64,000 nucleotides of DNA, from contig JAJECO010000084.1 of the NCBI GenBank assembly GCA_022822005.1, positions 62,001 through 126,000 of the forward strand, given 5' to 3'. Below the pieces are notes generated by a model, which saw only the letters and a program-made list of their open reading frames with translations, had not been told where the DNA came from and ran no database searches. Of the stretch, positions 37,026-57,470 are shown piece after piece (the stretch's first letter is position 1; each line of letters begins with the position of its first letter). The DNA is from Candidatus Poribacteria bacterium (GTDB lineage: Bacteria; Poribacteria; WGA-4E; PCPOR2b). The position numbers and the translations under genes are program-made.

Positions 37026-40000
37026 TCACTCAGATCCTGCTACAGGTAACCCAACAAAAAGCCGGCTATCAATATCTGTAAGCGGATCGACTTCACCGCA
37101 CGCTGCGGCACGGGCGAAAACGATGCCGGGATGTTTGGCTCGCATCGCACGAGAAAGAACGGTAAACCCTTTCGATTGGCTGCTGTCACGTAGTTCCCAC
37201 GCAACGCGTTGCAGCTCCGAGCTAAATCGAACAAGCCCTTCACGTGAGCCAATGCACAGCGTGTAGAGTTCATTAGACGTTAAACCATCGCAATACCCGT
37301 TACGAATCACGATATCTCCCCCTCGAATATCTGAAACCACCCCTCGCGCCCCAACAACACAAGCGAGTCGATAAAGCCTGCTCGTAAAGGCGCGGCTTTT
37401 GACTGCGAGGATGTGCGGTCCCAAGTTATTATCATCATAGTTTTCGTAAGCGGCAATCCATTCCATAAGTTCCTCCGCGTAAGTGTTCCACGCTGTTGCA
37501 TCGTCGGGATCAGTAGGAACGGGAGGACTACCATCGCCCCTACTGAGGAACGGACTCATGGAGGCTCCCGATCTCTTTGCAATCTCAAATCCCCGCTGCG
37601 TCAGACGTTCAGCAACCTCAATGGTACGATCAATCCCCTCGCGTTTGAGGAGTGTTTTCAGCGTATCCGTTAATGACTGCCGCGTGACCAAACCCTCAGG
37701 GATAGCAACCTCCATTCCGACAATTTCTGCAAGCTCATCACGTCCTTCGGGGGTGAGACTCAAACTTGCCAACCCCCATATCGCATCATGCCCCGGGGCT
37801 AACGCTGTGCATATATTCGGATCTTGTTTGAGATGCCCAGCGATGGACAGCTGCTCACCGGCTTCCTGTTGACCCTCCGCTGTGATCGGCAAGAAAATCG
37901 CCGCTTGGTCGCCGTCAAAGTCAGCATTCATCAACTCACAGACAAAGGGATGAACACGGATAGCGCGGTCTGGCTGGCGCACCGGATGGAATGCAACAAA
38001 GGAGGTAGGCGAAAACGCAGGTGCTCGATGTACAATCACCCATGAACGTGCCATCAGCTCATCGAGGAGATGTGTTGCCCTCTGGCTTTTTCCTTGTACC
38101 TCTTTGCTTTCACCAAGTTCTTTTGCAACCCGCGACCCAAAAAGTGCCCACGCCATCTGCTCAGGAATGCCGACCTGATCGGCGCGTAACTTCGCATCTG
38201 GTACAATAACGCTGCGTCCACTGAAAAGCGTCCGTGCGTCAAAGCGCATATCCGCGGGCCCTAGAAGTGCGTCGAAATATTCCGCAAGGCGTGTTTGGAG
38301 CTGCTTGAGGGTTTGAAGAGTTAAACTTTCCGGTGCATCATTTGCAAACATCCGCTCTGCTCTGGTATTGACATCGGCAAGTGCACGATACTCGGAAACG
38401 TCTTCACATATACCAACTTCATCAATAATTTGAGCATGGAGCCACGGATGGGGGACTGGCTGGGCAAGCTGGAGCGTATTCCCAATCGGACGCGCAAATC
38501 GGAAAGTCAATTTGTCATCGTCCAAGTTAGCGTGGATGCCCCCCGCCGACAGTCGCTCCCTGAGTTTGGCAAACATCGGCGTCGGTGGGCCCGCCTGTTC
38601 AACTGTCCCTGCTGTAACGCGATCGGGAAGTGTCTCCACATCTGCCCGCGTCGAAGCACGGGTGTTGAAATGTTCCCGCAAAGTCTCAAACGCTGAAACG
38701 TTGCGTAGTGTATAGTATTCCAGTTCGCCAAACCCTTGATGGTATATAGGTTCGTCATGAACGATGGGCTCGGAGACCTTGAGCTTATCCAGCGCAATGT
38801 GAACCGTCTTTCCCCAATAAACCCAACCAACCGTACTCGGCCGATCCAGTTTCTTACCGTTGGCTCCAAACGTGAGGGTTTCCATCCCATCTTCAGGCAG
38901 TCCTACCTTTTGGAGTCGCTCACGGAGTTGATCGGCACTGGATGCTTGAAATGGCGGCACAATAGCGACTTCACCCTCCACCCGCGCGATGCGGCTCATG
39001 ACCGCTTCACGAATCTGACCAAAGTTCATCCGTCCATGCAAAGCACCAAAACTGAAAACGAGCTCCACCGGCGTACCATCGGCGAGGTGGGGCATCTCAT
39101 CGTCAGGAAGGATGCGCGAAATGACCCCCTTCGTCCCGTGACGGTTACTGATCTTATCGCCCGGTTCAACGGCATAAGGAAAATTTAGACGTGCAGCGCA
39201 CGACTCACTAATCGCAATCCCGTCCTCAAAGGTCTCTCCACCCCAAGAGATAAAAGCGGTCAACAGATTACGGCCACACCAAAAGTCAGGCACATCGGGC
39301 TCGTAACCCGTCTGGACAAGCGCAGGCTCTGGAGTAGAAGGCGACAACCACTGACGCATCATGTTCGCACCCATGAGTATTCGCGATGGATCATTGTGTT
39401 CGAGAAAAGGGATCAGTGCTGCAGATAGACCAAGCGTCGCCTCAGGGCTTTCATCCACGATGACCAATTTTTCATCACGGATCTCCGCGCCTCTCGCAAT
39501 CGTTAGAATTTTGCCAACGTTGGGTCCCTCTGGCGTTTCAAATGGACAAGTCCGCCCAAAGTGTCCGGGGCTAAACACCTGATTCCCCTGTGAAATTTGC
39601 ACCCTACGCAGATGCGTCTGCTTGTCCAGCCAGTTGGTTCGAGAGAGTTTCTGAGCGGTGGGTGTATCACTAAAGAATTCACGCACCCATCTATCAATCG
39701 GGAGCCATGAGCGAACAAGTGATGTTTCCCATTCCAGATCTGGCGGTGCTTCCCTGATGCGTACTTTGAAGTAGTCGTACAGTTGATCTCCCATACACGC
39801 AACCTTCGCTTTTTCCAGCTTCACGGTTGAAGCGATCGGCACAACAACATAGGGTTCACCGTCGAGTGTGAACATGCCATCCGTATCAGGCTGCGGAACG
39901 TCCGTGTATTCGACCTCAACATAACCCCCAGTTGACGCCAGCACGATTCTGATCCGACAGGTATACGCACCGATTGATTCAAAATGATATCCAGCGAGCG

Positions 40001-40091
40001 GCACCCGATCAGCAAGAAGTTCTGGCAGTTGTTCTTTCATCAATTCTTCAAAGGATTCTTTGTGCCAAAATGCGGTGATGTTGTGCGACAT
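37026..40091 (-). CDS. Compact single-chain RNA polymerase beta/beta-prime-like protein
   Basis: 1021 residues holding, in the order of normal rpoB then rpoC, recognisable parts of both catalytic subunits. Beta part: GMFTLDGEPYVVVPI (72-86), TH-x-RR (159-163), GRTCPFETPEGPN (179-191), AFISWGGETFEDGIAISE (279-296), GDKISNRHGTKG (311-322), GRMNFGQI (353-360), ALDKLKVSEP (433-442), GFGELEYY (453-460). Beta-prime part: LQLAQPVPHPW (540-550), SGRSVIVPD (624-632), HRAP (688-691), the catalytic NADFDGDQ (722-729), GFEIAKRSG (834-842), then DGLTSNELYTLCIGSREGL (935-953), matching the bridge-helix start. Both double-psi barrels are therefore present with the three metal-binding Asp. The flap, zinc ribbon, jaw and most of the trigger-loop region are missing. 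AGGAGG stands six bases before the ATG. A template-directed RNA (or DNA) synthesising activity is inferred; the target is unknown. Confidence 0.85.
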   Translation of the reverse strand: MSHNITAFWHKESFEELMKEQLPELLADRVPLAGYHFESIGAYTCRIRIVLASTGGYVEVEYTDVPQPDTDGMFTLDGEPYVVVPIASTVKLEKAKVACMGDQLYDYFKVRIREAPPDLEWETSLVRSWLPIDRWVREFFSDTPTAQKLSRTNWLDKQTHLRRVQISQGNQVFSPGHFGRTCPFETPEGPNVGKILTIARGAEIRDEKLVIVDESPEATLGLSAALIPFLEHNDPSRILMGANMMRQWLSPSTPEPALVQTGYEPDVPDFWCGRNLLTAFISWGGETFEDGIAISESCAARLNFPYAVEPGDKISNRHGTKGVISRILPDDEMPHLADGTPVELVFSFGALHGRMNFGQIREAVMSRIARVEGEVAIVPPFQASSADQLRERLQKVGLPEDGMETLTFGANGKKLDRPSTVGWVYWGKTVHIALDKLKVSEPIVHDEPIYHQGFGELEYYTLRNVSAFETLREHFNTRASTRADVETLPDRVTAGTVEQAGPPTPMFAKLRERLSAGGIHANLDDDKLTFRFARPIGNTLQLAQPVPHPWLHAQIIDEVGICEDVSEYRALADVNTRAERMFANDAPESLTLQTLKQLQTRLAEYFDALLGPADMRFDARTLFSGRSVIVPDAKLRADQVGIPEQMAWALFGSRVAKELGESKEVQGKSQRATHLLDELMARSWVIVHRAPAFSPTSFVAFHPVRQPDRAIRVHPFVCELMNADFDGDQAAIFLPITAEGQQEAGEQLSIAGHLKQDPNICTALAPGHDAIWGLASLSLTPEGRDELAEIVGMEVAIPEGLVTRQSLTDTLKTLLKREGIDRTIEVAERLTQRGFEIAKRSGASMSPFLSRGDGSPPVPTDPDDATAWNTYAEELMEWIAAYENYDDNNLGPHILAVKSRAFTSRLYRLACVVGARGVVSDIRGGDIVIRNGYCDGLTSNELYTLCIGSREGLVRFSSELQRVAWELRDSSQSKGFTVLSRAMRAKHPGIVFARAAACGEVDPLTDIDSRLFVGLPVAGSE

Positions 40092-40281: not shown

Positions 40282-40896
40282 TCATTCCTTATCTTCTTCC
40301 CAACCGCTTGCGATTTCCCTCCATTCGCGAGCGAGATGTCTTATGGAATAGTATAAACGCGACTTCACAGTGCCTTCTGGAATGCCCAGCTCTATGGCGA
40401 CTTCTCGAAGTGCCATCTCTTTCTGATATATGAGGTGCAGCACCTCTCGTTTCTCTTGGGGCAGCCCATCAACAAGTTGCCAGAGCAGCTGGGACCGTTC
40501 GGCTTGCTCCACCATCACTTCGGGACCGCCCGATGAGGTATCAATCAGCCAAGCCGGATCTGGTGGACGTTCTCCCTCATCATCGTATTCGTCCGGCGGC
40601 GTTTCGAGCGGCTCTTGCCGCCGTCGCCGCACAGTGCGCAGATAATTGAGGGCGAGATTCGTTGCGATGCGAAAAAGCCAGCCCTTGAACTCGCCTTGAC
40701 CATTCCACTGTTCAGCGCGCGTCCAGACACGCAAAAACACCTCTTGAACCAGATCTTCGGCAGCACTCTCAACCTGCACGATGCTAAGGATATGCTGGCG
40801 GACGGACGCACTGTGCCGTGCAAAAAGGATCTCAAAAGCAGCGGCATCGCGTTTCACAGTCTTACAAATGAGGGTTTGGTCTGATTGCTCCATCAT
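40282..40896 (-). CDS. ECF-type RNA polymerase sigma factor
   Basis: Sigma-70 family factor of the extracytoplasmic-function group, 204 residues. Region 2 spans AAFEILFARHSASVRQHI to FKGWLFRIATNLALNYLR and includes the DLVQEVFLRVW core-binding and -10 recognition helices. An acidic linker (EYDDEGERPPDP) follows, then region 4 with LPQEKREVLHLIYQKEMAL and the helix-turn-helix IPEGTVKSRLYYSIRHL. ATG 40896 follows GGAAG; a frame to 41004 is open but unsupported. No anti-sigma gene follows. Instead the compact polymerase-like gene lies 190 bases downstream on the same strand, so the two may form one unit. A GAACTT/GTGTC pair 18-45 bases upstream resembles an ECF promoter. Confidence 0.9.
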   Translation of the reverse strand: MMEQSDQTLICKTVKRDAAAFEILFARHSASVRQHILSIVQVESAAEDLVQEVFLRVWTRAEQWNGQGEFKGWLFRIATNLALNYLRTVRRRRQEPLETPPDEYDDEGERPPDPAWLIDTSSGGPEVMVEQAERSQLLWQLVDGLPQEKREVLHLIYQKEMALREVAIELGIPEGTVKSRLYYSIRHLAREWREIASGWEEDKE

Positions 40897-41143
40897 AAAA
40901 GACTTCCACTGTAAATGACACCGCGGGGGAGATAAAAGTTCATGGCATAGACCAAAAAATGGGATTAGGTCGAAACGGTCCCATCTTATCTGTCGAAATA
41001 ACACAACAAGGAAATAGGTCAGAGGAGAGACAAAATTCTGATATCCGACTCCTCTCTGATTTTTGGATTTTGGGTAGCATGAAGGGGTGCAAATGTGATA
41101 AGATGCAGGTGTTACATATCACACAACACATTGGGCCAAAAAT

Positions 41144-48134: not shown

Positions 48135-50066
48135 TCAATCCGACATGGGGAGTTTATATAGCTTCACTTTCCGATAAAGGGTGGACCTGTCGATTTTCAA
48201 TGCTTCGGCAGCCTTGGTAACATTATTATTCATTACTTTGAGCGCGTGGGCAAGTGTTTGACGTTCAACCTCTTCAAACGGTAGAATTTCTGTTGAATCG
48301 GGAGAGAGGGAGATAGGTTGGGAAGAAATCATTGACAAAATCTGCGAGGGCAGGCTGCTCGGTTGTAACAACTCTGTGGTCTCAAGTAAAACAGCGCGTT
48401 CAATGATGTTTTCCAGCTCACGTACATTACCGGGAAAGTCGTACTGCATCAATAATCGTAAGGTATCAGCGGAAATGGCGTTAATGGATTTCGTGGTATT
48501 TTCGACATATTTTTTTAGAAAATGATTTGCTAAGAGTGGGATATCCTCGCGACGGTCTCTAAGCGGAGGCACCACGATTGGGAAAGCGGCGATCCGATAG
48601 AACAGATCTGTCCGGAAAGTCCCCGCTTCCACCGCAGCTTCTAAGTTCTGATTTGTCGCTGTCAGCACTCGGATGTCAATTGGGATATTGGTTGTACCCC
48701 CGACGCGCTGGACCCGACGCTCTTGAAGGACACGCAGCAATTTCGCTTGTAGAGCCAATTCCATATCACCAATTTCATCAAGAAAGATAGTCCCTTGATT
48801 CGCATGTTCAAATTTGCCGATTCGTTTCGCAGTGGCACCGGTGAAAGCCCCCCGTTCATGTCCGAACAACTCGCTCTCAATGAGTGTCTCAGGAATGGCA
48901 GCGCAATTGACGGTAACAAATGGACCCGCTTTTCGAGAGCTATTAAAGTGGATCGCCCTTGCGACCAATTCTTTACCGGTCCCGCTCTCTCCTGAAATCA
49001 GCACGGTGATATCACTTTCAGCTGCCCGTTGCATCAACGCAAATGTCTGCTGCATGATCTGGCTTTTGCCGACAATTTCACCGAAGGAGTGGTTCGTTTC
49101 AAGCTCGGTGCGTAAGCGGAGTACCTCCGCTTTCATCTGCTGGATCTCAACCTCTTTGGACATATCCCGGTAACTGACAACGTTACCGGCAAAGTCGCCT
49201 TGACTGTTCGACACCGGGGTAATCAAGCGATAAAACAACCTCGGTTCAGACTGACTCGCGTCGCCAATCTCTTCCACCATGTCTTCAAGATTCTCAGCGT
49301 GTGCCCCGCCCCCCGGTTGCGAGAGTTCTGTCTCTTGGAAACGTTCTCTCATATGTTCTCTGATGTCGTCCGGCGGCATCTGCCGCAGCTGCTCTTCCGT
49401 TAAGTCAAACAACTGCTGATAGTATTGATTTGCAAACAGTAGGTGTCCGTCGTCATCAAACATGCCGATCGCATCTGCAGCAGAATCAAGCACAGTCTCA
49501 AGCCTTTGATGACTGATTTCGAGGTTTTGATGATTCGTTACGATTTGCTGCTGTTTTTTGGCTAATTCCTGTTCGATATTCCACTTTTCGACAAGGGCGA
49601 GCGTAATTTGCTGGACCTCCTCCGGCGCAAAAGGCTTGCGGATATAGAGCAATTTATGAAGCAGTTCCATATCACGGACAATTTCAGGCAGCGGTTTATC
49701 CGTGTAAGCAGTCATAATGATCAGTTCAATGTCCTTCTCGATCTGTCTGATCCGACGGATTGCTTCAACGCCATCAATCCCCGGTGGCATCCTAACATCA
49801 ATGTATGCCACCGCAATGGGACGGTCCGATTCCTTTGCCGTGCGTATAATATCGTACGCTTCCTCGCCGCTTGTCGCATGTAAAAGTTCAAAGGGAGGCA
49901 GAAAGGCGTTTCTATTCTGCGAATTCTCGTCAAGAAGGGATGCTGCCAACTGATCTGTTAATGTCTGTGTACCGTTGGGATTCAACATATCTTCAAAGTC
50001 GCTATGGATCCCGTCTTCATCATCAACAATCAAAACACGATAATTCCAATTTTCTTTTAGTTCCAT
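48135..50066 (-). CDS. Sigma-54-dependent response regulator (REC-PAS-AAA+-Fis HTH)
   Basis: NtrC-type transcription activator, 643 residues. An atypical receiver occupies about 1-165: VDDEDG acid pair at 14-19, phospho-acceptor Asp90 in [10 protein letters not shown], with an unusual 30-residue insert after the first helix. A PAS domain follows (about 195-320). The AAA+ domain has Walker A GESGTGKE (359-366) and the sigma-54 contact loop GAFTGA (406-411). The C-terminal Fis-type helix-turn-helix is [19 protein letters not shown]. It should open sigma-54 promoters on phosphorylation. It is the last gene of a same-strand series after two sensor kinases, and it faces the gmaS cluster. The only good -24/-12 site I found in the window is at 59372. 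Confidence 0.92.
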
Positions 50067-50363: not shown

Positions 50364-53300
50364 CTACGGCAGAATTGAGGAACACCGCATCATAATTCGC
50401 ATCGTTGTGCCTTTGCCGATACCCTCGCTCAAGGCGTGAATTTTTCCGCCAGAGCCAATCACAAAGTTGGCACTCGAATGCAGACCGAGCCCCGTACCCG
50501 AATCCTTCGTCGTGTAACCGGCATTGAAAATTAACTTTGAGTCCTTCTGTGCGACACCAATGCCGTTATCGGTAACATCAAGATAGAGAAAATCCTCACG
50601 GATATAGGCTTTAATCTCAATGCGTGGCGCTTCATTGAGACCACCCGATTGAATCAGTTCATCAATGGCTTCAATCGAATTTTTCAACAGATTCACCAGC
50701 ATTTGCTGGAATTGACTCTCCTGAATCTGAATCTCTTGGGGCGCGCCTTCGCAGTCAACATTGACCTCGATGCTTCTTTTGCCGATCGAATCGTGCTGTA
50801 ATTTCACCGCGCTCAAGATTGTCTGATGCAGGTCGATAGTTTTCCGCGTCATACTGGGCTGATTAGAGGATTTTTGCGTCCGGATAATATCAATGATATG
50901 CGTGACCCTCCCACTAACACGCTCAAGTGTCTTAACCATCTTTTCATTCTGATTGGTAAAGTCTGCGGCGAGCGCGATCATAAAGGGGAGTACCTGCTGC
51001 CCTTTCGGGTCATTTTTGATGAAATCAACCCAATCCTCCTGATGGGCTTTAACCATATCGGCAAGTGCGGAGAAGCGGTTTATGAGTTGATTCCCCACTA
51101 TGTTCTCTTGGAGGACGTTAATGCCTACCGTGACGCTGTTGATGGCGTTGCCGATATTGTGGAGGATGGTCTCGACAATTTCCAACCGTCCTTGCGCGAA
51201 TGCTTGCATCAACGCTTCTTCGGCGATCACTTGATGTGTCACATCGCGGAAAACGATTACCCCCCCTTTGTCAGTGCCCGTTTTGTCCCGTAGCGGCCTC
51301 CCACTGACGCTAATAAAAACACCGTCTGGCACTTTCGGGTTGCGCACAAACATCTCTACCTCGTCTGAGATCTGGCCCTGGAGGGCCCGTGCCAGTGGCA
51401 GTTCCTCTGGTGGAAAGGGGGTCACTCTATCGGAAAAAAAGAGACCATAGCTATCACTCCATTCATCAGGACCTGTATCTGTTGGACCGATTCCGACAAT
51501 TTTTTCGGCACTTGGATTAAAAATTGTGAAGGCACCATCTGCATCGGCGACGATCACCCCATCACTGATACTATTAAAAATAGATTCCATCAGGTTGCCC
51601 TGCTCTTCGAGTTGGTTAACTATGTTTTTTAACTCGATCTCCGCCTGTCTGAGTTCCGTGACATCGCGTGAAACAGAAACGCCCCCGGTCACAACACCTT
51701 GTGCATCGCGTAGGGGTCTTGCGCTGACGCTCAAATGCAGCCCCTCCTGCATTTTCGGGGTGGACATAAACATACTGATGTTGTCTGACTCCTCACCACG
51801 GAGGGTGCGTATAAGTGGAAGTTCATCTGCGGAAAAGGGGGTTTTTTCATCGGGGTGAAAGAAGCCGAATCGTTCAGGTGCGTCCTTAATGTCCATGGGC
51901 TCCAGATGCTGACCGGTCATCTGTTCCGCAGTTTGATTATACATGACGTATCGCCCCTTATCATCGGCAACGACAACCCCATCGCTCATATTATTAAAAA
52001 CGACTTCCAAGAGTTGCGTCTGATTTTCGAGCTCAGCGACTGTTTGCTCCAACTGGATCTGTGTCTGTTTGAGCTCCGTGATATTGTGGGCAACAACCAC
52101 CCCGCCTCTCGAAACGCCATTTTTGTCAAGGAGCGGCCTTCCATTGATACTGACATAAACCTCCTGTGATAGTTGCGGGTTCCTTATGTGCATTTCGATG
52201 TTGTCTGTCGGCTCACCCTTGACGGCGCGGGCGAGTGGAAGTTGATCTGGAGTAAACAGTGATCCGGTCGTGGAGTCAAAAAGACCGTATTGTTCAGATG
52301 ATTGAGGAAGATCTAGCGCATCAAACTGTTGATCGCCAATCATCTGTTCCGCAGCCGGATTCGCCATTATGTATTCCCCATTTTCATTCGCAACGAGCAC
52401 TCCATCGCTCATATTATTAAAAACGGTTTCCAAGAGTTGCGTCTGATTTTCGAGTTGGATCTGTGTCTGTTTGATCTCCGTGATGTCGCGGGTAACAACT
52501 ACCCCTCCTCTCGAAACGCCATTTTCATCGAGTAGCGGTCTCCCATTGACACTAGCATAAACCTCCTGTGACAGGTGCTCGTTGTTTATACACACTTCGA
52601 CGTTGTTTGGCGACTCACCTTTGATGGCACGGGCGAGTGGGAGTTGATCTGGGGGAAACAGTGCTCCGGTCGTGGGGTGAAAAATACCATATTGTTCAGA
52701 TGCGCGAGGAAGGTCTAGCTCATCAAACTGTTGGCCACCAATCATCTGTTGAAGGGCCGGATTCGCCATTATGTATTGCCCGTTTTCATCCGCCACGAGC
52801 ACCCCATCGCTCATATTACTGAAAATAATATCCATCAGTTGCGTCTGATCTTGAAGTTCACGAATGGTTTGATTTAACCGTTCCTCGATTTCTTTATAGT
52901 CAGTGATATCTCGGCAGGTTATAACCATGCCAACAACCTTTCCTCTTTGATTGATAGAGGGCATGGCGTTATAGTTCACTTGGATTTTTTGATCCGATCT
53001 GGTAGTGAGGATAGCCTCATAATCCCCCTTGCCATCGGTAGACAAATCCGGGGCGATAGGGGTATCTGGGTGGAGTATACCCCTCAAAACCGCTGTTATA
53101 GGACAATCGCCCTCAGTATCAACGCGGAAAATTTGCTGTATGTTTGCCCCAGAAGCCGCTTCAAATTGACAACCTATCATACGTTCGGCGGCCGGATTCA
53201 TAAATGTTACCAATCCCTTTCGATCCGTGGCAATTACAGCATCACTCACATTATTGAAAATGGTCGTGAGCTGCTGTTCTTCTCTGAATCGCTGATCTTC

Positions 53301-53672
53301 CTGATACCAGTAAAGATGAGTTTCGATGCTCAGGTGTAATTGGTTCGTTCCATACGGTTTGAAAACATGGCCAAATGCCCGAGTTGTCCTTACCTTCTCC
53401 AATAAATTTTCGTTTACATAATTCGTCAGATATATCACTGGAATATCGAAACGGTTATATATCTCTTGGGCAATGTCGACGCCATCCATTTCCCCTTCAA
53501 CGTCCATATCAATTAGGACTAAATCGGGGCGCATTTCTGTCACTTTCGCAATTGCTTGCGCCTTGGCGGAGACTATAGCGCAAATGGTGTATCCTAGCGT
53601 TGTTAATCGTTCTTCAATGTCTTCGGCAACAGCGGTGTTGCTTTCAACGATTATAATTTTTGCGTTTGCCAT
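50364..53672 (-). CDS. Receiver-PAS5-histidine kinase (copy 1)
   Basis: 1102-residue hybrid sensor without membrane segments, so cytosolic. An N-terminal receiver has phospho-acceptor Asp55 (LIDMDVEGEMDG). Five PAS domains follow, each with an SDGV-(V/L)-VAD...MANPA-type core and a linker ending RDITELKQ; the first reads SDAVIATDRKG. The kinase has a His838-containing dimerisation helix (ETILHNIGNAINSV) and an ATPase domain with LLKNSIEAID, DNGIGV and GTGLGLHSSANFV. The frame opens with a TTG one codon earlier, but the ATG at 53672 follows AAGGAG by six bases. It is 30 bases downstream of copy 2 and upstream of the sigma-54 activator, its likely partner. Confidence 0.9.
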   Translation of the reverse strand: MANAKIIIVESNTAVAEDIEERLTTLGYTICAIVSAKAQAIAKVTEMRPDLVLIDMDVEGEMDGVDIAQEIYNRFDIPVIYLTNYVNENLLEKVRTTRAFGHVFKPYGTNQLHLSIETHLYWYQEDQRFREEQQLTTIFNNVSDAVIATDRKGLVTFMNPAAERMIGCQFEAASGANIQQIFRVDTEGDCPITAVLRGILHPDTPIAPDLSTDGKGDYEAILTTRSDQKIQVNYNAMPSINQRGKVVGMVITCRDITDYKEIEERLNQTIRELQDQTQLMDIIFSNMSDGVLVADENGQYIMANPALQQMIGGQQFDELDLPRASEQYGIFHPTTGALFPPDQLPLARAIKGESPNNVEVCINNEHLSQEVYASVNGRPLLDENGVSRGGVVVTRDITEIKQTQIQLENQTQLLETVFNNMSDGVLVANENGEYIMANPAAEQMIGDQQFDALDLPQSSEQYGLFDSTTGSLFTPDQLPLARAVKGEPTDNIEMHIRNPQLSQEVYVSINGRPLLDKNGVSRGGVVVAHNITELKQTQIQLEQTVAELENQTQLLEVVFNNMSDGVVVADDKGRYVMYNQTAEQMTGQHLEPMDIKDAPERFGFFHPDEKTPFSADELPLIRTLRGEESDNISMFMSTPKMQEGLHLSVSARPLRDAQGVVTGGVSVSRDVTELRQAEIELKNIVNQLEEQGNLMESIFNSISDGVIVADADGAFTIFNPSAEKIVGIGPTDTGPDEWSDSYGLFFSDRVTPFPPEELPLARALQGQISDEVEMFVRNPKVPDGVFISVSGRPLRDKTGTDKGGVIVFRDVTHQVIAEEALMQAFAQGRLEIVETILHNIGNAINSVTVGINVLQENIVGNQLINRFSALADMVKAHQEDWVDFIKNDPKGQQVLPFMIALAADFTNQNEKMVKTLERVSGRVTHIIDIIRTQKSSNQPSMTRKTIDLHQTILSAVKLQHDSIGKRSIEVNVDCEGAPQEIQIQESQFQQMLVNLLKNSIEAIDELIQSGGLNEAPRIEIKAYIREDFLYLDVTDNGIGVAQKDSKLIFNAGYTTKDSGTGLGLHSSANFVIGSGGKIHALSEGIGKGTTMRIMMRCSSILP

Positions 53673-53705
53673 CAAAATCTCCTTGGCTCATGTTAAGATG
53701 TGGAC

Positions 53706-56700
53706 CTACGGCAGAATTGATGAGCACCGCATCATAATTCGCATCGTTGTGCCTTTGCCGATGCCCTCGCTCAAGGGGTAAATCTTCCCGCCAGAGCCAA
53801 TCACAAAATTGGCACTCGAATGGAGACCGAGCCCGGTCCCCGAGTCCTTTGTCGTGTAACCGGCATTGAAGATTAACTTCGAGTCCTTCTGTGCGACACC
53901 AATGCCGTTATCGGTAACATCAAGATAGAGGAAATCCTTACGGATATAGGCTTTAATTTCAACGCGCGGCTTTTCATTGAGTCCGCCCGATTGAATCAGT
54001 TCATCAATGGCTTCAATCGAATTTTTCAACAGATTCACCAACATCTGCTGGAATTGACTCTCCTGAATCTGAATCTCTTGGGGCGCGTTCTCGCAATCGA
54101 CATCGACTTGGATGCCTCTTTTGCCAATCGAATCGTGCTGCAATTTGACCGCGCTCAAGATTGTCTGATGCAGGTCGATAGTTTTCCGCGTCATACTGGG
54201 CTGATTAGAGGATTTTTGCGTCCGGATAATATCAATGATATGCGTGACTCTCTCATTGACGCGCTCAAGTGTCTTGACCATCTTTTCATTCTGATTGGTA
54301 AAGTCTGCGGCGAGCGCGATCATGAATGGGAGTACCTGCTGCCCTTTCGGGTCATTTTCAATGAAATCAACCCAATCCTCCTGATGTGCCTTAACCATAT
54401 GGGCGAGTGCAGAGAAGCGGTGTATGAGTTGACTCCCCACTATATTCTCTTGGAGGACGTTAATGCCTACCGTGACGCTGTTGATGGCGTTGCCGATATT
54501 GTGGAGGATGGTCTCGACAATTTCCAACCGTCCTTGCGCGAATGCTTGGGTCAACGCTTCTTCGGCGATCACCCGATGCGTCACATCGCGGAACACTGCC
54601 ACCCCTCCTTTGTCAGTGTCCATTTCGTCCCGTATCGGTCTCCCACTGACGCTGATAAAAACACCGTCTGGCACTTTCGGGTTGCGTACAAACATCTCTA
54701 CGTCGTCTGAGGTCTCACCTTTGAGGGCAAGTGCGAGCGGCAGTTCATCTGATGGAAAGGGGGTCACTCTATCGGGGAAAAAGAGCCCATAGTTATCACT
54801 CCATTCATCAGGATCTGTCTCTACTGCCCCCATTCCGATAATTTTTTCGGCACTTGGATTAAAAATTGTCAGGGCACCATCTGCATCGGCGACGACCACC
54901 CCATCACTGATACTATTAAAAATAGATTCCATCAGGTTGCCCTGCTCTTCGAGTTGGCTAACTATGCTTTTTAACTCGATCTCCACCTGTTTGAGCTCTG
55001 TGATATCGCGGACAACAACCACCCCGCCTCTCGAAACGCCATTTTCGTCGAGTAGAGGCCTCCCACTCACACTGAGATAAGCCTCCTTTGACAGTTGCTC
55101 GTTGTTTATACGCATTTCGACGTTGTCTGTCGCCTCACCCTTGACGGCACGGGCGAGTGGGAGTTGGTCTGAGGGAAACAATGATTCTGTCGTGGGGTGA
55201 AAAACACTATATTGTTCAGATGCGCGAGGCAGGTCTAGGTCATCAAGAGGTTGACCGACCATCTGTTGCACGGCTGAATTCGCCATTATGTATTGCCCCC
55301 TGTCGTCGGCGACAACCACCCCATCGCTCATATTATTAAAAATAATCTCCATCAGTCGCGTCTGATCTTCTAGGTCCCTGACAGTTTGTTCTAACCTAGC
55401 CTCTGTGCTCTTAGCTTTCGTCACATCGCGGAAAACAATCACGCCCCCTCTCACACTGTTTCGTTCGTCCTGTAGGGGTCTTCCAGTGACATTGATAAAA
55501 CAACCGTCTGGATTTTCCGGATTGCGCATAAACAGATCGACTTCATCTGTTACCCGCCCCTGCATGGCGTGAACGAGCGGAAGTTCCTCGTTAGGAAAGG
55601 GGGTAACTTTATCGGGATAAAAGGTGCCGTACGCGTCACTCCATTGATCAGGCGGCGTGTCTGTTGCCCCCATACCGACAATCCGTTCCGCACTTGGATT
55701 GACAAGCAAAAAGTTTCCCGCTTCATCGGTGACAACGACGCCATCACTGATACTATTAAAAACGGTTTCCGTCAGTTGAACCTGATTTTGCAGTTCCTGC
55801 ATCGTTTTTTCTAACTGTGCCTCTGCGGCTTTACTCTTTGTGATATCGCGTAGAATGGCAACACAGCCGATAACCTCCCGATTTTCATCAAATAAGGGGA
55901 GGGCACTCGCCATGACATTAATTCCGTCCATCTGTCCCTCATTGCGTACAAAAATCTCTCTATCCCTTATCGCCTTACCCCGGAAGATATATCTGGACAG
56001 AAGCCGATCAATTGGAATGTGTCTCTCTTTGTTAGGATAAAAAACACCGTACGTTTCAGACCAATTACTGGGGCGTGGATCCAGGGGCCTCGTACCTAAC
56101 ATCTGTTTTATACTTGGATTGACCAACATTATTTTACCCGCTGCGCTGACGACGACGATACCATCAGACATACTATCAAAAACGGTTTCCATCAGTTGGG
56201 TTTTATCGCGTAACTCGCTGATGGTTTGTTCCAATTTGGTCTGTGTCGCCTTGAGCTCGGTAATATCGTGGAAAACGATAACGCCCCCTTTCAAATCGCC
56301 TTGTCCGTCGAGTAGGGGTCTCCCGTTAATATTAATAAAAATCTCCTCCGCTTGGGTATCGTTGGACACAAGCATTTCGATATTGTCCGTTGTTTCACCA
56401 CGGAGGGCACACGCGATCGGCAACTCATCTCCGGAAAAAAGCGTCTTACCATCGGGATAAAAGAGACCATAACGTTCAGGACGGTCAGCGATCAATATCT
56501 CCTTTGAAAGGGGTCCAACCATCTCTTGCGCCCTGGTATTAGCTATGAGGTATTGCCCATCCGTATCGACGGCCATTACCCCATCGCTGATACTATTAAA
56601 AATGGTTTCCATCAGTTGGGTCTGATCTTGAAGCTGATTGATGGTCTGGTTTAACCGGTCCTCCAACGCTTTATAGTCAGTGGTATCTCGGAAGGTTATA

Positions 56701-57470
56701 ACCGTGCCAACTACCTCTCCTTTTTGATTGGTAGAGGGCGCGATGCTATAGTCAATATGGGTTTTTCGCCCCGATTTGCTAGTAAAGATGGTGCTACCCT
56801 TTACCTCAGCATCAGTCGGTAATTCGGAGGAACCAGCAGTGCCTATATCCAACACATTTTTCAAAACCGCTGTTATAGGACAATTTCCCTCAGTATCAAT
56901 CTGGAAAATTTGCTTTATGTTCACCCTGGCAGCTTCTTCCCGGTGCCAACCTGTCATACGTTCAGCGGCCGGATTCATAAATGTTATCAATTCCTTGTTG
57001 TCCGTGGCAATCACGGCGTCACTGATACCGTTGAGAATCGTAGTAAGCTGCCGTTCTTTGACTTTGGTTTCTCGTTCCATCCTATGCTGATATACAGTGC
57101 TCTCAACGGTCAAGTATAATCGTCTTTTTCCATGGGGCTGAGGGAGATAATCAAACAGATTGGTTATCCCCGCTCGTTTTAATAAATCTTTTTTCTCCGA
57201 GAAGACGTCGTTTGAATAATCAGCGAGATATATGGTCGGAATGTCCAAGGAGTTGCGTATCCGTTTGGCGGTCTCTATGCCATCTATTTCCCCTTCGAGT
57301 TCTACATTGATGAGGACGACATCGGGCGACATTTCTGCCGCTTTTTCAACCGCTTCTGCTCCGGTTGGAACCGCAGCACAAACACTGTATTCTAACTCTT
57401 TGAGCCGTCTTTCAAGGTGTTCAGCAACGGATTTCTTTTGTTCAACGATCAAGATGTTTATGTTTTCCAT
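53706..57470 (-). CDS. Receiver-PAS6-histidine kinase with inactive receiver (copy 2)
   Basis: 1254-residue paralogue of the next gene. The receiver has Asn55 where phosphorylation should occur (LINVELEGEIDG) and has lost the acid pair (IVEQKK), so it cannot be phosphorylated in the usual way. Six PAS domains follow; the third reads SDGIVVVSAAGK and the fourth SDGVVVTDEAGN, so they are divergent and may sense different ligands. The kinase, with His990 in ILHNIGNAINSV and GTGLGLHSSANF, is almost the same as in copy 1, also at the DNA level, which points to recent duplication or gene conversion. There is no membrane segment. It is probably first gene of the kinase-kinase-activator series; a perfect palindrome lies 47 bases upstream. 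Confidence 0.9.
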   Translation of the reverse strand: MENINILIVEQKKSVAEHLERRLKELEYSVCAAVPTGAEAVEKAAEMSPDVVLINVELEGEIDGIETAKRIRNSLDIPTIYLADYSNDVFSEKKDLLKRAGITNLFDYLPQPHGKRRLYLTVESTVYQHRMERETKVKERQLTTILNGISDAVIATDNKELITFMNPAAERMTGWHREEAARVNIKQIFQIDTEGNCPITAVLKNVLDIGTAGSSELPTDAEVKGSTIFTSKSGRKTHIDYSIAPSTNQKGEVVGTVITFRDTTDYKALEDRLNQTINQLQDQTQLMETIFNSISDGVMAVDTDGQYLIANTRAQEMVGPLSKEILIADRPERYGLFYPDGKTLFSGDELPIACALRGETTDNIEMLVSNDTQAEEIFININGRPLLDGQGDLKGGVIVFHDITELKATQTKLEQTISELRDKTQLMETVFDSMSDGIVVVSAAGKIMLVNPSIKQMLGTRPLDPRPSNWSETYGVFYPNKERHIPIDRLLSRYIFRGKAIRDREIFVRNEGQMDGINVMASALPLFDENREVIGCVAILRDITKSKAAEAQLEKTMQELQNQVQLTETVFNSISDGVVVTDEAGNFLLVNPSAERIVGMGATDTPPDQWSDAYGTFYPDKVTPFPNEELPLVHAMQGRVTDEVDLFMRNPENPDGCFINVTGRPLQDERNSVRGGVIVFRDVTKAKSTEARLEQTVRDLEDQTRLMEIIFNNMSDGVVVADDRGQYIMANSAVQQMVGQPLDDLDLPRASEQYSVFHPTTESLFPSDQLPLARAVKGEATDNVEMRINNEQLSKEAYLSVSGRPLLDENGVSRGGVVVVRDITELKQVEIELKSIVSQLEEQGNLMESIFNSISDGVVVADADGALTIFNPSAEKIIGMGAVETDPDEWSDNYGLFFPDRVTPFPSDELPLALALKGETSDDVEMFVRNPKVPDGVFISVSGRPIRDEMDTDKGGVAVFRDVTHRVIAEEALTQAFAQGRLEIVETILHNIGNAINSVTVGINVLQENIVGSQLIHRFSALAHMVKAHQEDWVDFIENDPKGQQVLPFMIALAADFTNQNEKMVKTLERVNERVTHIIDIIRTQKSSNQPSMTRKTIDLHQTILSAVKLQHDSIGKRGIQVDVDCENAPQEIQIQESQFQQMLVNLLKNSIEAIDELIQSGGLNEKPRVEIKAYIRKDFLYLDVTDNGIGVAQKDSKLIFNAGYTTKDSGTGLGLHSSANFVIGSGGKIYPLSEGIGKGTTMRIMMRCSSILP

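Follow-up and report, generated by a model that had tools for sequence, protein, structure and literature searches.

A conserved chromosomal cassette pairs an ECF sigma factor gene with a predicted flapless, single-chain RNA polymerase

Results

The window, which is the whole 64,000-nucleotide stretch of Candidatus Poribacteria DNA that we analysed, carries on its minus strand a gene coding for an ECF sigma factor composed of sigma regions 2 and 4 (40282..40896, −; Pfam Sigma70_r2 and Sigma70_r4_2), followed by a gene coding for a predicted flapless single-chain β/β′ RNA polymerase of 1021 aa (37026..40091, −), an assignment based on Pfam, hhalign and an AF2 model. The true start of the sigma gene is probably ATG 40896 or 40893; the alternative start, GTG 41004, lies upstream of the ECF-type promoter TGAACTTTTATCTCCCCCGCGGTGTC that precedes the gene (40917..40942, −) and bears the conserved pattern GAAC-N15-GGTGTC. 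The neighbours of this cassette are ordinary chromosomal genes (bioD, a MocA oxidoreductase gene, MFS, glutamine synthetase and PAS kinase genes). Elsewhere in the window, two adjacent response-regulator, multi-PAS, histidine-kinase genes coding for 1103 and 1254 aa (50364-57470) adjoin a sigma-54 activator gene (48135-50066). Normal rpoB and rpoC genes are present on another contig of the same genome, and the 1021-aa protein, hereafter the mini-polymerase, is thus not the sole polymerase of its host.

Three Pfam domains, Rpb2_3, Rpb2_6 and Rpb1_2, occur together in the 1021-aa chain, which hhalign matched to β and β′ with probabilities of 100% and 99.9%, respectively; as these matches show, the protein is a fusion of β and β′. 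The initial annotation had placed the motifs FEDGIAISE and GDKISNRHGTKG only 14 residues apart, and this count is exact at 39159..39206 (−), which codes for the junction residues 296-311 (ESCAARLNFPYAVEPG): FEDGIAISE occupies residues 288-296, the linker residues 297-310 and GDKISNRHGTKG residues 311-322. Profile-profile alignment, which together with motif spacing delimits the junction, puts this 14-aa linker in the place of E. coli β 825-1052, a segment left unmatched. Where the motif search worked, which was in 11 family members, FED and GDK are spaced by 14 aa (15 in L011), compared to 255-274 aa in 14 canonical RpoB proteins and 142 aa in two actinobacterial ones, so that the figure of more than 200 residues first given for normal β applies to most bacteria and not to all. 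The short junction of 14-15 residues recurs in 30 out of 30 aligned family members, including those of the Latescibacterota group; judged from this alignment, it is a family trait and not a chance event. Relocation of the flap to another part of the chain, which would have refuted the annotation, was ruled out: profile-profile alignment to E. coli β revealed no flap-like segment elsewhere in the 1021-aa chain, and structural alignment paired 526 of the 529 N-terminal model residues with β 22-1165 of 8i23_C (Z 28.5, rmsd 4.9), leaving no room for a relocated flap. Since the flap is absent rather than moved, the chain lacks the site on which sigma region 4 usually docks.

According to the predicted domain map, the flap is one deletion among many. 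On the β side, residues 59-84 correspond to E. coli β 121-146, residues 86-300 to 442-824 with large gaps, and residues 301-526 to 1053-1342. On the β′ side, residues 568-608 correspond to E. coli β′ 269-309, residues 609-774 to 330-510 and residues 775-954 to 567-784, with weak but collinear matches of residues 531-566 to 96-131 and of residues 990-1014 to 1330-1354. The parts lost comprise both lobes and the flap of β, and the zinc finger, most of the clamp, the lid, the rudder, most of switch 2, the trigger loop and the jaw of β′; those retained are both psi-barrels, NADFDGD, a bridge-helix-like helix and the clamp-helix hairpin of β′. The first double-psi barrel (β; residues 301-440; 38772..39191, −) includes GDKISNRHGTKG with K313 and K321 and is supported by Pfam Rpb2_6 (residues 308-439, E 1.4e-36) and by alignment to β 1053-1242, while the second (β′; residues 619-780; 37752..38237, −) is supported by Pfam Rpb1_2 (residues 673-746, E 9.8e-20) and by alignment. 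The catalytic NADFDGD was located by family alignment at residues 722-728 (37908..37928, −), and residues K313/K321, R237, R354, H431, R626 and R689 are also retained in the window protein. As the bridge helix of E. coli spans β′ 769-804, its equivalent in the mini-polymerase is residues 939-970 (37182..37277, −), which form a 32-residue helix in the AF2 model. No residues equivalent to the trigger loop, expected after the bridge helix, were found, the alignment to β′ reaching 784 and then only 1330-1354, nor did the alignment to E. coli β′ reveal equivalents of the zinc-finger cysteines. The clamp helices of β′, which form the dock for sigma region 2, are retained at residues 566-609 (38265..38396, −), as indicated by hhalign to β′ 269-309 and by the AF2 helices 566-583 and 588-609.

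The AF2 model (pLDDT 85.8, pTM 0.84) was computed from an alignment with rows from both the family and canonical subunits; it supports the predicted fold without being an independent proof of it, as the canonical rows bias the model toward the known fold. A model built from 12 family sequences only (pLDDT 53.5, pTM 0.38) was not used. In its domains the protein agrees with a two-barrel RNA polymerase, one of its two DPBB domains bearing the DxDxD Mg motif (NADFDGD) and the other the conserved Lys (K321), whereas DNA-dependent RNA synthesis is inferred. It fits neither the definition of canonical RpoB (TIGR02013, 185.9 bits for a cut-off of 801; flap and lobes absent) nor that of canonical RpoC (TIGR02386, 97.9 bits for a cut-off of 963.5).

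The sigma factor qualifies as an ECF (group 4) factor, with regions 2 and 4 only, no region 1.1 or 3, and a score of 112.4 bits against the NCBIfam sigma70-ECF cut-off of 42.9. At all 31 full-length loci (13/13 in a first set and 18/18 in a second), the polymerase gene is preceded on the same strand by an orthologous ECF sigma gene. These loci span Poribacteria, Hydrogenedentota, the phylum of L010 (labelled Gemmatimonadaceae) and L015 (Latescibacterota), and a Myxococcales-labelled MAG. For a single contig, the label of its MAG can be in error; the 18 members of the second set come from 18 genomes, four of which are single-contig pieces of 5.7-6.5 Mb. The distribution is patchy, with the family found in 11 out of 84 genomes of Poribacteria, 22 out of 64 genomes from the L010 phylum and 2 out of 68 from the L008 phylum; one poribacterial locus (L007) is nearly identical to that of the window. 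Besides the sigma gene, no neighbour is common to distant family members. The two genes abut or overlap in several loci (L008, L088 and L327), and a single gene intervenes between them in five of the 31. In three Latescibacterota-group loci (L339:1453-3243, L333:4508-6370 and L338), the sigma and polymerase genes are separated by an ABC exporter gene with transmembrane and ATPase domains, and in L336 and L341 the gap is filled by a gene coding for a 396-aa product without named domain. An apparent N-terminal fusion with sigma in L010 (1244-aa frame) was discarded, since the upstream sigma gene overlaps the frame and had been read there out of frame. Of 22 relatives examined, the 10 that carry the polymerase also have the sigma orthologue (59-100% identity), which is missing from the 12 that do not, and the other ECF factors of these relatives are at most 36% identical to it. 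In one genome (L194, G001:C1:3597475-3597639), only the last 55 polymerase codons remain beside bioD and the sigma gene is gone too; loss of the cassette in G001 indicates that the system is dispensable.

Pairwise dN/dS ratios range from 0.13 to 0.17 for the polymerase gene and from 0.08 to 0.23 for the sigma gene, and are alike across the polymerase domains (0.14 for the clamp helices); purifying selection thus acts on both genes. That the gene is a pseudogene or results from faulty assembly could be argued on the ground that a few members are truncated or contain in-frame stops (L193/G064 and G001), but this reading is refuted for the family by 31 full-length loci, several of them on complete single-contig genomes (G127, G128, G139 and G140), by dN/dS near 0.14 and by a 14-15-aa linker throughout. 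The copy at L193:4269-6353 (G064:C330), which lacks the first 310 codons and has decayed motifs, is probably a dying gene.

In the 30-member alignment, D726, D728 and D290 are invariant, D724 is found in 28 and K321 in 29 members, and the equivalents of K1073, E813/D814, R678 and R1106 are retained in nearly all; the bridge-helix residues are weakly conserved. Eight members carry R689S/P691Q (β′ R425 and P427), and the Asn of NADFDGD is variable. We take these three positions to be involved in sugar recognition in canonical enzymes, and substrate choice may thus differ. Lineage-specific catalytic or substrate-binding changes were observed in L131 (D724N, R354L) and L343 (D724Y, K321R), both of which look impaired from their predicted sequences, in L009 and L012 (K313A/T and R237H) and in L333-L342; these members may have lost activity or altered their substrate choice. 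The substitutions in L131, L343 and L009/L012, the loss of the trigger loop and the retention of the clamp helices would also suit a protein that is no polymerase at all and binds sigma as a regulator, either as an anti-sigma factor or as a decoy core, the more so as the gene directly follows that of the ECF sigma factor, the usual place of a cognate anti-sigma gene. A decoy, however, needs no catalytic site, whereas the active-site Asp residues and K321 are conserved as given above and dN/dS is low throughout both barrels, which makes this explanation improbable.

The promoter is as constant as the gene pair. In all 13 loci of the first set, TGAAC-N15-GGTGTC precedes the sigma gene at an unchanged position, and a strict scan of 484 kb on both strands returned 13 matches, each at a sigma gene. 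The second set yielded GAAC-N15-GGNGTC in 18 out of 18 loci, with a single correctly oriented copy per locus and no copy in the opposite orientation, while chance alone predicts about one match over the entire set. Altogether, GAAC-N15-GGNGTC precedes the sigma gene with fixed spacing in 31 out of 31 loci. This is the predicted architecture of an autoregulated ECF promoter; its reading by the sigma factor is inferred. The constant spacing of 15 nt is in line with a rigid arrangement but does not discriminate, because the promoters are orthologous. Only one strict copy exists in the 6.0-Mb genome to which the window belongs, and about one per cassette-bearing relative. When one mismatch was allowed, this genome gave 8 sites compared to 12 for a reversed-pattern control, and the numbers in relatives were chance-like. 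Further strict promoters are almost absent, hence most genomes show no regulon. In two related genomes, a second exact copy lies before an ABC-2 type permease gene (L141, G012:C27; L142, G009:C1), the only extra conserved promoter target seen.

The retained clamp helices differ from those of E. coli at positions that contact sigma. In E. coli β′ numbering, R275 is replaced by A or V and E295 by A, T, S or G in all 30 members, and A302 by R in 26; the window protein has V574, T594 and R601 at these positions. In E. coli, R275Q, E295K and A302D each singly weaken holoenzyme formation (PMC8321222). Such uniform, family-wide changes fit a putative private interface between sigma and core. Of the two docks expected of a holoenzyme-forming core, the mini-polymerase has the β′ clamp helices for region 2 and lacks the β flap for region 4. 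The proposal in the initial annotation that sigma must be contacted in another way is strengthened by the kept hairpin, its replaced contact residues and the constant upstream ECF gene; without data on a complex, a different sigma contact and a different exit path for this flapless chain are still inferences.

The sigma factor itself retains the usual ECF core-binding motif of region 2.2 (DLxQE) and a normal region 4. It could serve the normal, flap-bearing polymerase and only control the expression of the mini-polymerase, which would then be independent of sigma and might act, for instance, on templates that are primed or single-stranded, or at promoters that it reads itself. The general nature of the DLxQE motif speaks for such an arrangement, as does the clear −35 element GAAC, where the E. 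coli enzyme needs its flap tip (PMC8321222). ECF genes also frequently adjoin their own targets (PMC4598750), some of the operons include an ABC exporter or another gene, and the permease gene of two genomes has the second promoter. What it leaves unexplained is the constraint on the clamp dock (dN/dS 0.14) amid near-total loss of peripheral parts and the uniform change of the sigma-contact residues. We consider it unlikely, though still a serious contender to a dedicated sigma-polymerase pair.

Full-length homologues were found neither among 50,697 phage records and 72,556 plasmids nor in IMG/VR; the VIA list consists mainly of the β half, and missing matches there carry no conclusion. Trigger-loop-less polymerases with two barrels, in a single chain or split, are mainly known from phages (PMC5467207, PMC10770324, PMC7598289), and the mini-polymerase might be a remnant of a YonO-type or jumbo-phage-type enzyme. 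With chromosomal neighbours and no full-length viral match, it does not qualify as phage-encoded. YonO showed no detectable similarity to the family (hhalign probability of 0.1% with both profiles), with the reservation that it was entered as a single sequence and that very remote homology is not excluded. The best matches by sequence and structure are bacterial β and β′, and the idea of a prophage or phage origin was dropped, its chances being very slim. In an unrooted tree, the family forms one clade (100/100 support) on a long branch, separate from the canonical polymerases, those of phages and the all-in-one fusion. Viral polymerases of ~1470 aa from IMG/VR, in which β and the first part of β′ are fused (L116, L118 and L125), form a separate clade. 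The all-in-one fusion is a ~2160-residue frame from Poribacteria (L297:6114-13469, G069:C244) that joins an alpha N-terminal domain, which may represent a diverged second copy of alpha, to β and β′, with a different ECF sigma gene 3 nt downstream. Partial copies of the same type occur in G008 (L137, with sigma downstream, and L136). It seems that no complete single-chain core enzyme with a sigma of its own has been described before. A shared origin of the mini-polymerase family and L297 is suggested by the unrooted tree and not settled, given the meeting of long branches and the lack of an archaeal outgroup.

Discussion

What began with an absent flap extends to a conserved sigma-plus-polymerase cassette, whose enzyme activity and holoenzyme formation are inferred. 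The genomes themselves show that the chain is a fusion that has lost parts and kept its catalytic motifs, that it is strictly paired with one sigma subfamily behind a conserved promoter, and that selection on the pair is purifying. We favour, with a probability of about 0.58, an accessory chromosomal two-gene system made of a reduced, flapless single-chain polymerase and a dedicated ECF sigma factor, in which catalysis and sigma binding are both inferred. The mini-polymerase is, on this account, a putative descendant of bacterial β and β′ or shares a common ancestor with them. It would make RNA on DNA, and the retained β′ clamp helices, with a re-written contact surface, would receive sigma region 2. 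In E. coli, the enzyme without flap tip cannot use the −35 element, the flap tip being needed at −10/−35 promoters (PMC8321222). With no flap to hold region 4, contact with the −35 element would thus have to be made by sigma alone on DNA or with the help of a new surface. The GAAC-N15-GGTGTC promoter would provide self-activation of the pair, and few other promoters would be served. The missing trigger loop leads us to expect lower accuracy and no RNA cleavage, as reported for YonO, a polymerase showing that a trigger-loop-less single chain can be processive (PMC5467207).

Several points count against a dedicated pair. Its sigma factor, with the usual ECF core-binding motif, may act on the normal polymerase; catalytic residues are changed in a few members and the bridge helix is weakly conserved; and a regulon is not apparent in the majority of genomes. 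There are no biochemical or expression data for the mini-polymerase and none on its complex with sigma or DNA, and its function is inferred. Whether several phyla possess, beside their normal polymerase, an orthogonal second transcription machine with its own ECF holoenzyme and a promoter otherwise unused in most genomes seems to us evenly balanced.

The general view is that bacteria rely on one core RNA polymerase with exchangeable sigma factors. If the proposed pairing is true, a conserved cassette of a sigma factor and a reduced core would break this one-core rule in cells, beyond phages. As the flap and trigger loop are lost and the clamp helices kept, what sigma really needs of a polymerase would become testable, including −35 recognition without a flap and the minimum size of a sigma-dependent polymerase. 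A single-chain, sigma-programmed polymerase of ~115 kDa with one strict promoter would also be an orthogonal laboratory tool. We found no description of a chromosomal, sigma-linked single-chain polymerase in the open-access text of PubMed Central.

Canonical bacterial β and β′ are the nearest relatives of the mini-polymerase. They share with it two double-psi barrels, NADFDGD, GDK..RHGxKG, FED, RMNxGQ and the clamp helices, are 27-30% identical to it over the β half and give its best structure matches, but amount to ~2750 residues in E. coli compared to one chain of 1021. The fused host RpoB-RpoC proteins (NCBIfam PRK14844 and PRK09603) likewise join β and β′ in one chain, yet they are essential housekeeping enzymes with the full domain set and ~2840-2890 residues, as estimated from profile lengths. 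Hodgkinia RpoB has also lost its flap-tip helix and altered its clamp-helix contacts (PMC8321222); it is the eroded sole polymerase of an endosymbiont, in which the flap tip alone is lost and no sigma is dedicated. YonO of Bacillus phage SPbeta is likewise a single chain with few peripheral domains and no trigger loop that works beside the host polymerase (PMC5467207), but it is a phage late-gene polymerase, whereas the mini-polymerase family is chromosomal, sigma-linked and clearly similar to RpoB/RpoC. P23-45 gp64/gp96 and phi14:2 gp66 are also reduced single-chain two-barrel proteins, which are viral and for which no sigma partner is described (PMC10770324). Finally, the AR9 nvRNAP is another non-canonical polymerase that requires its own sigma-like factor, gp226, at promoters; it differs in its split β/β′ fragments, in the lack of sigma sequence similarity of gp226 and in its use of uracil-template promoters (PMC7598289).
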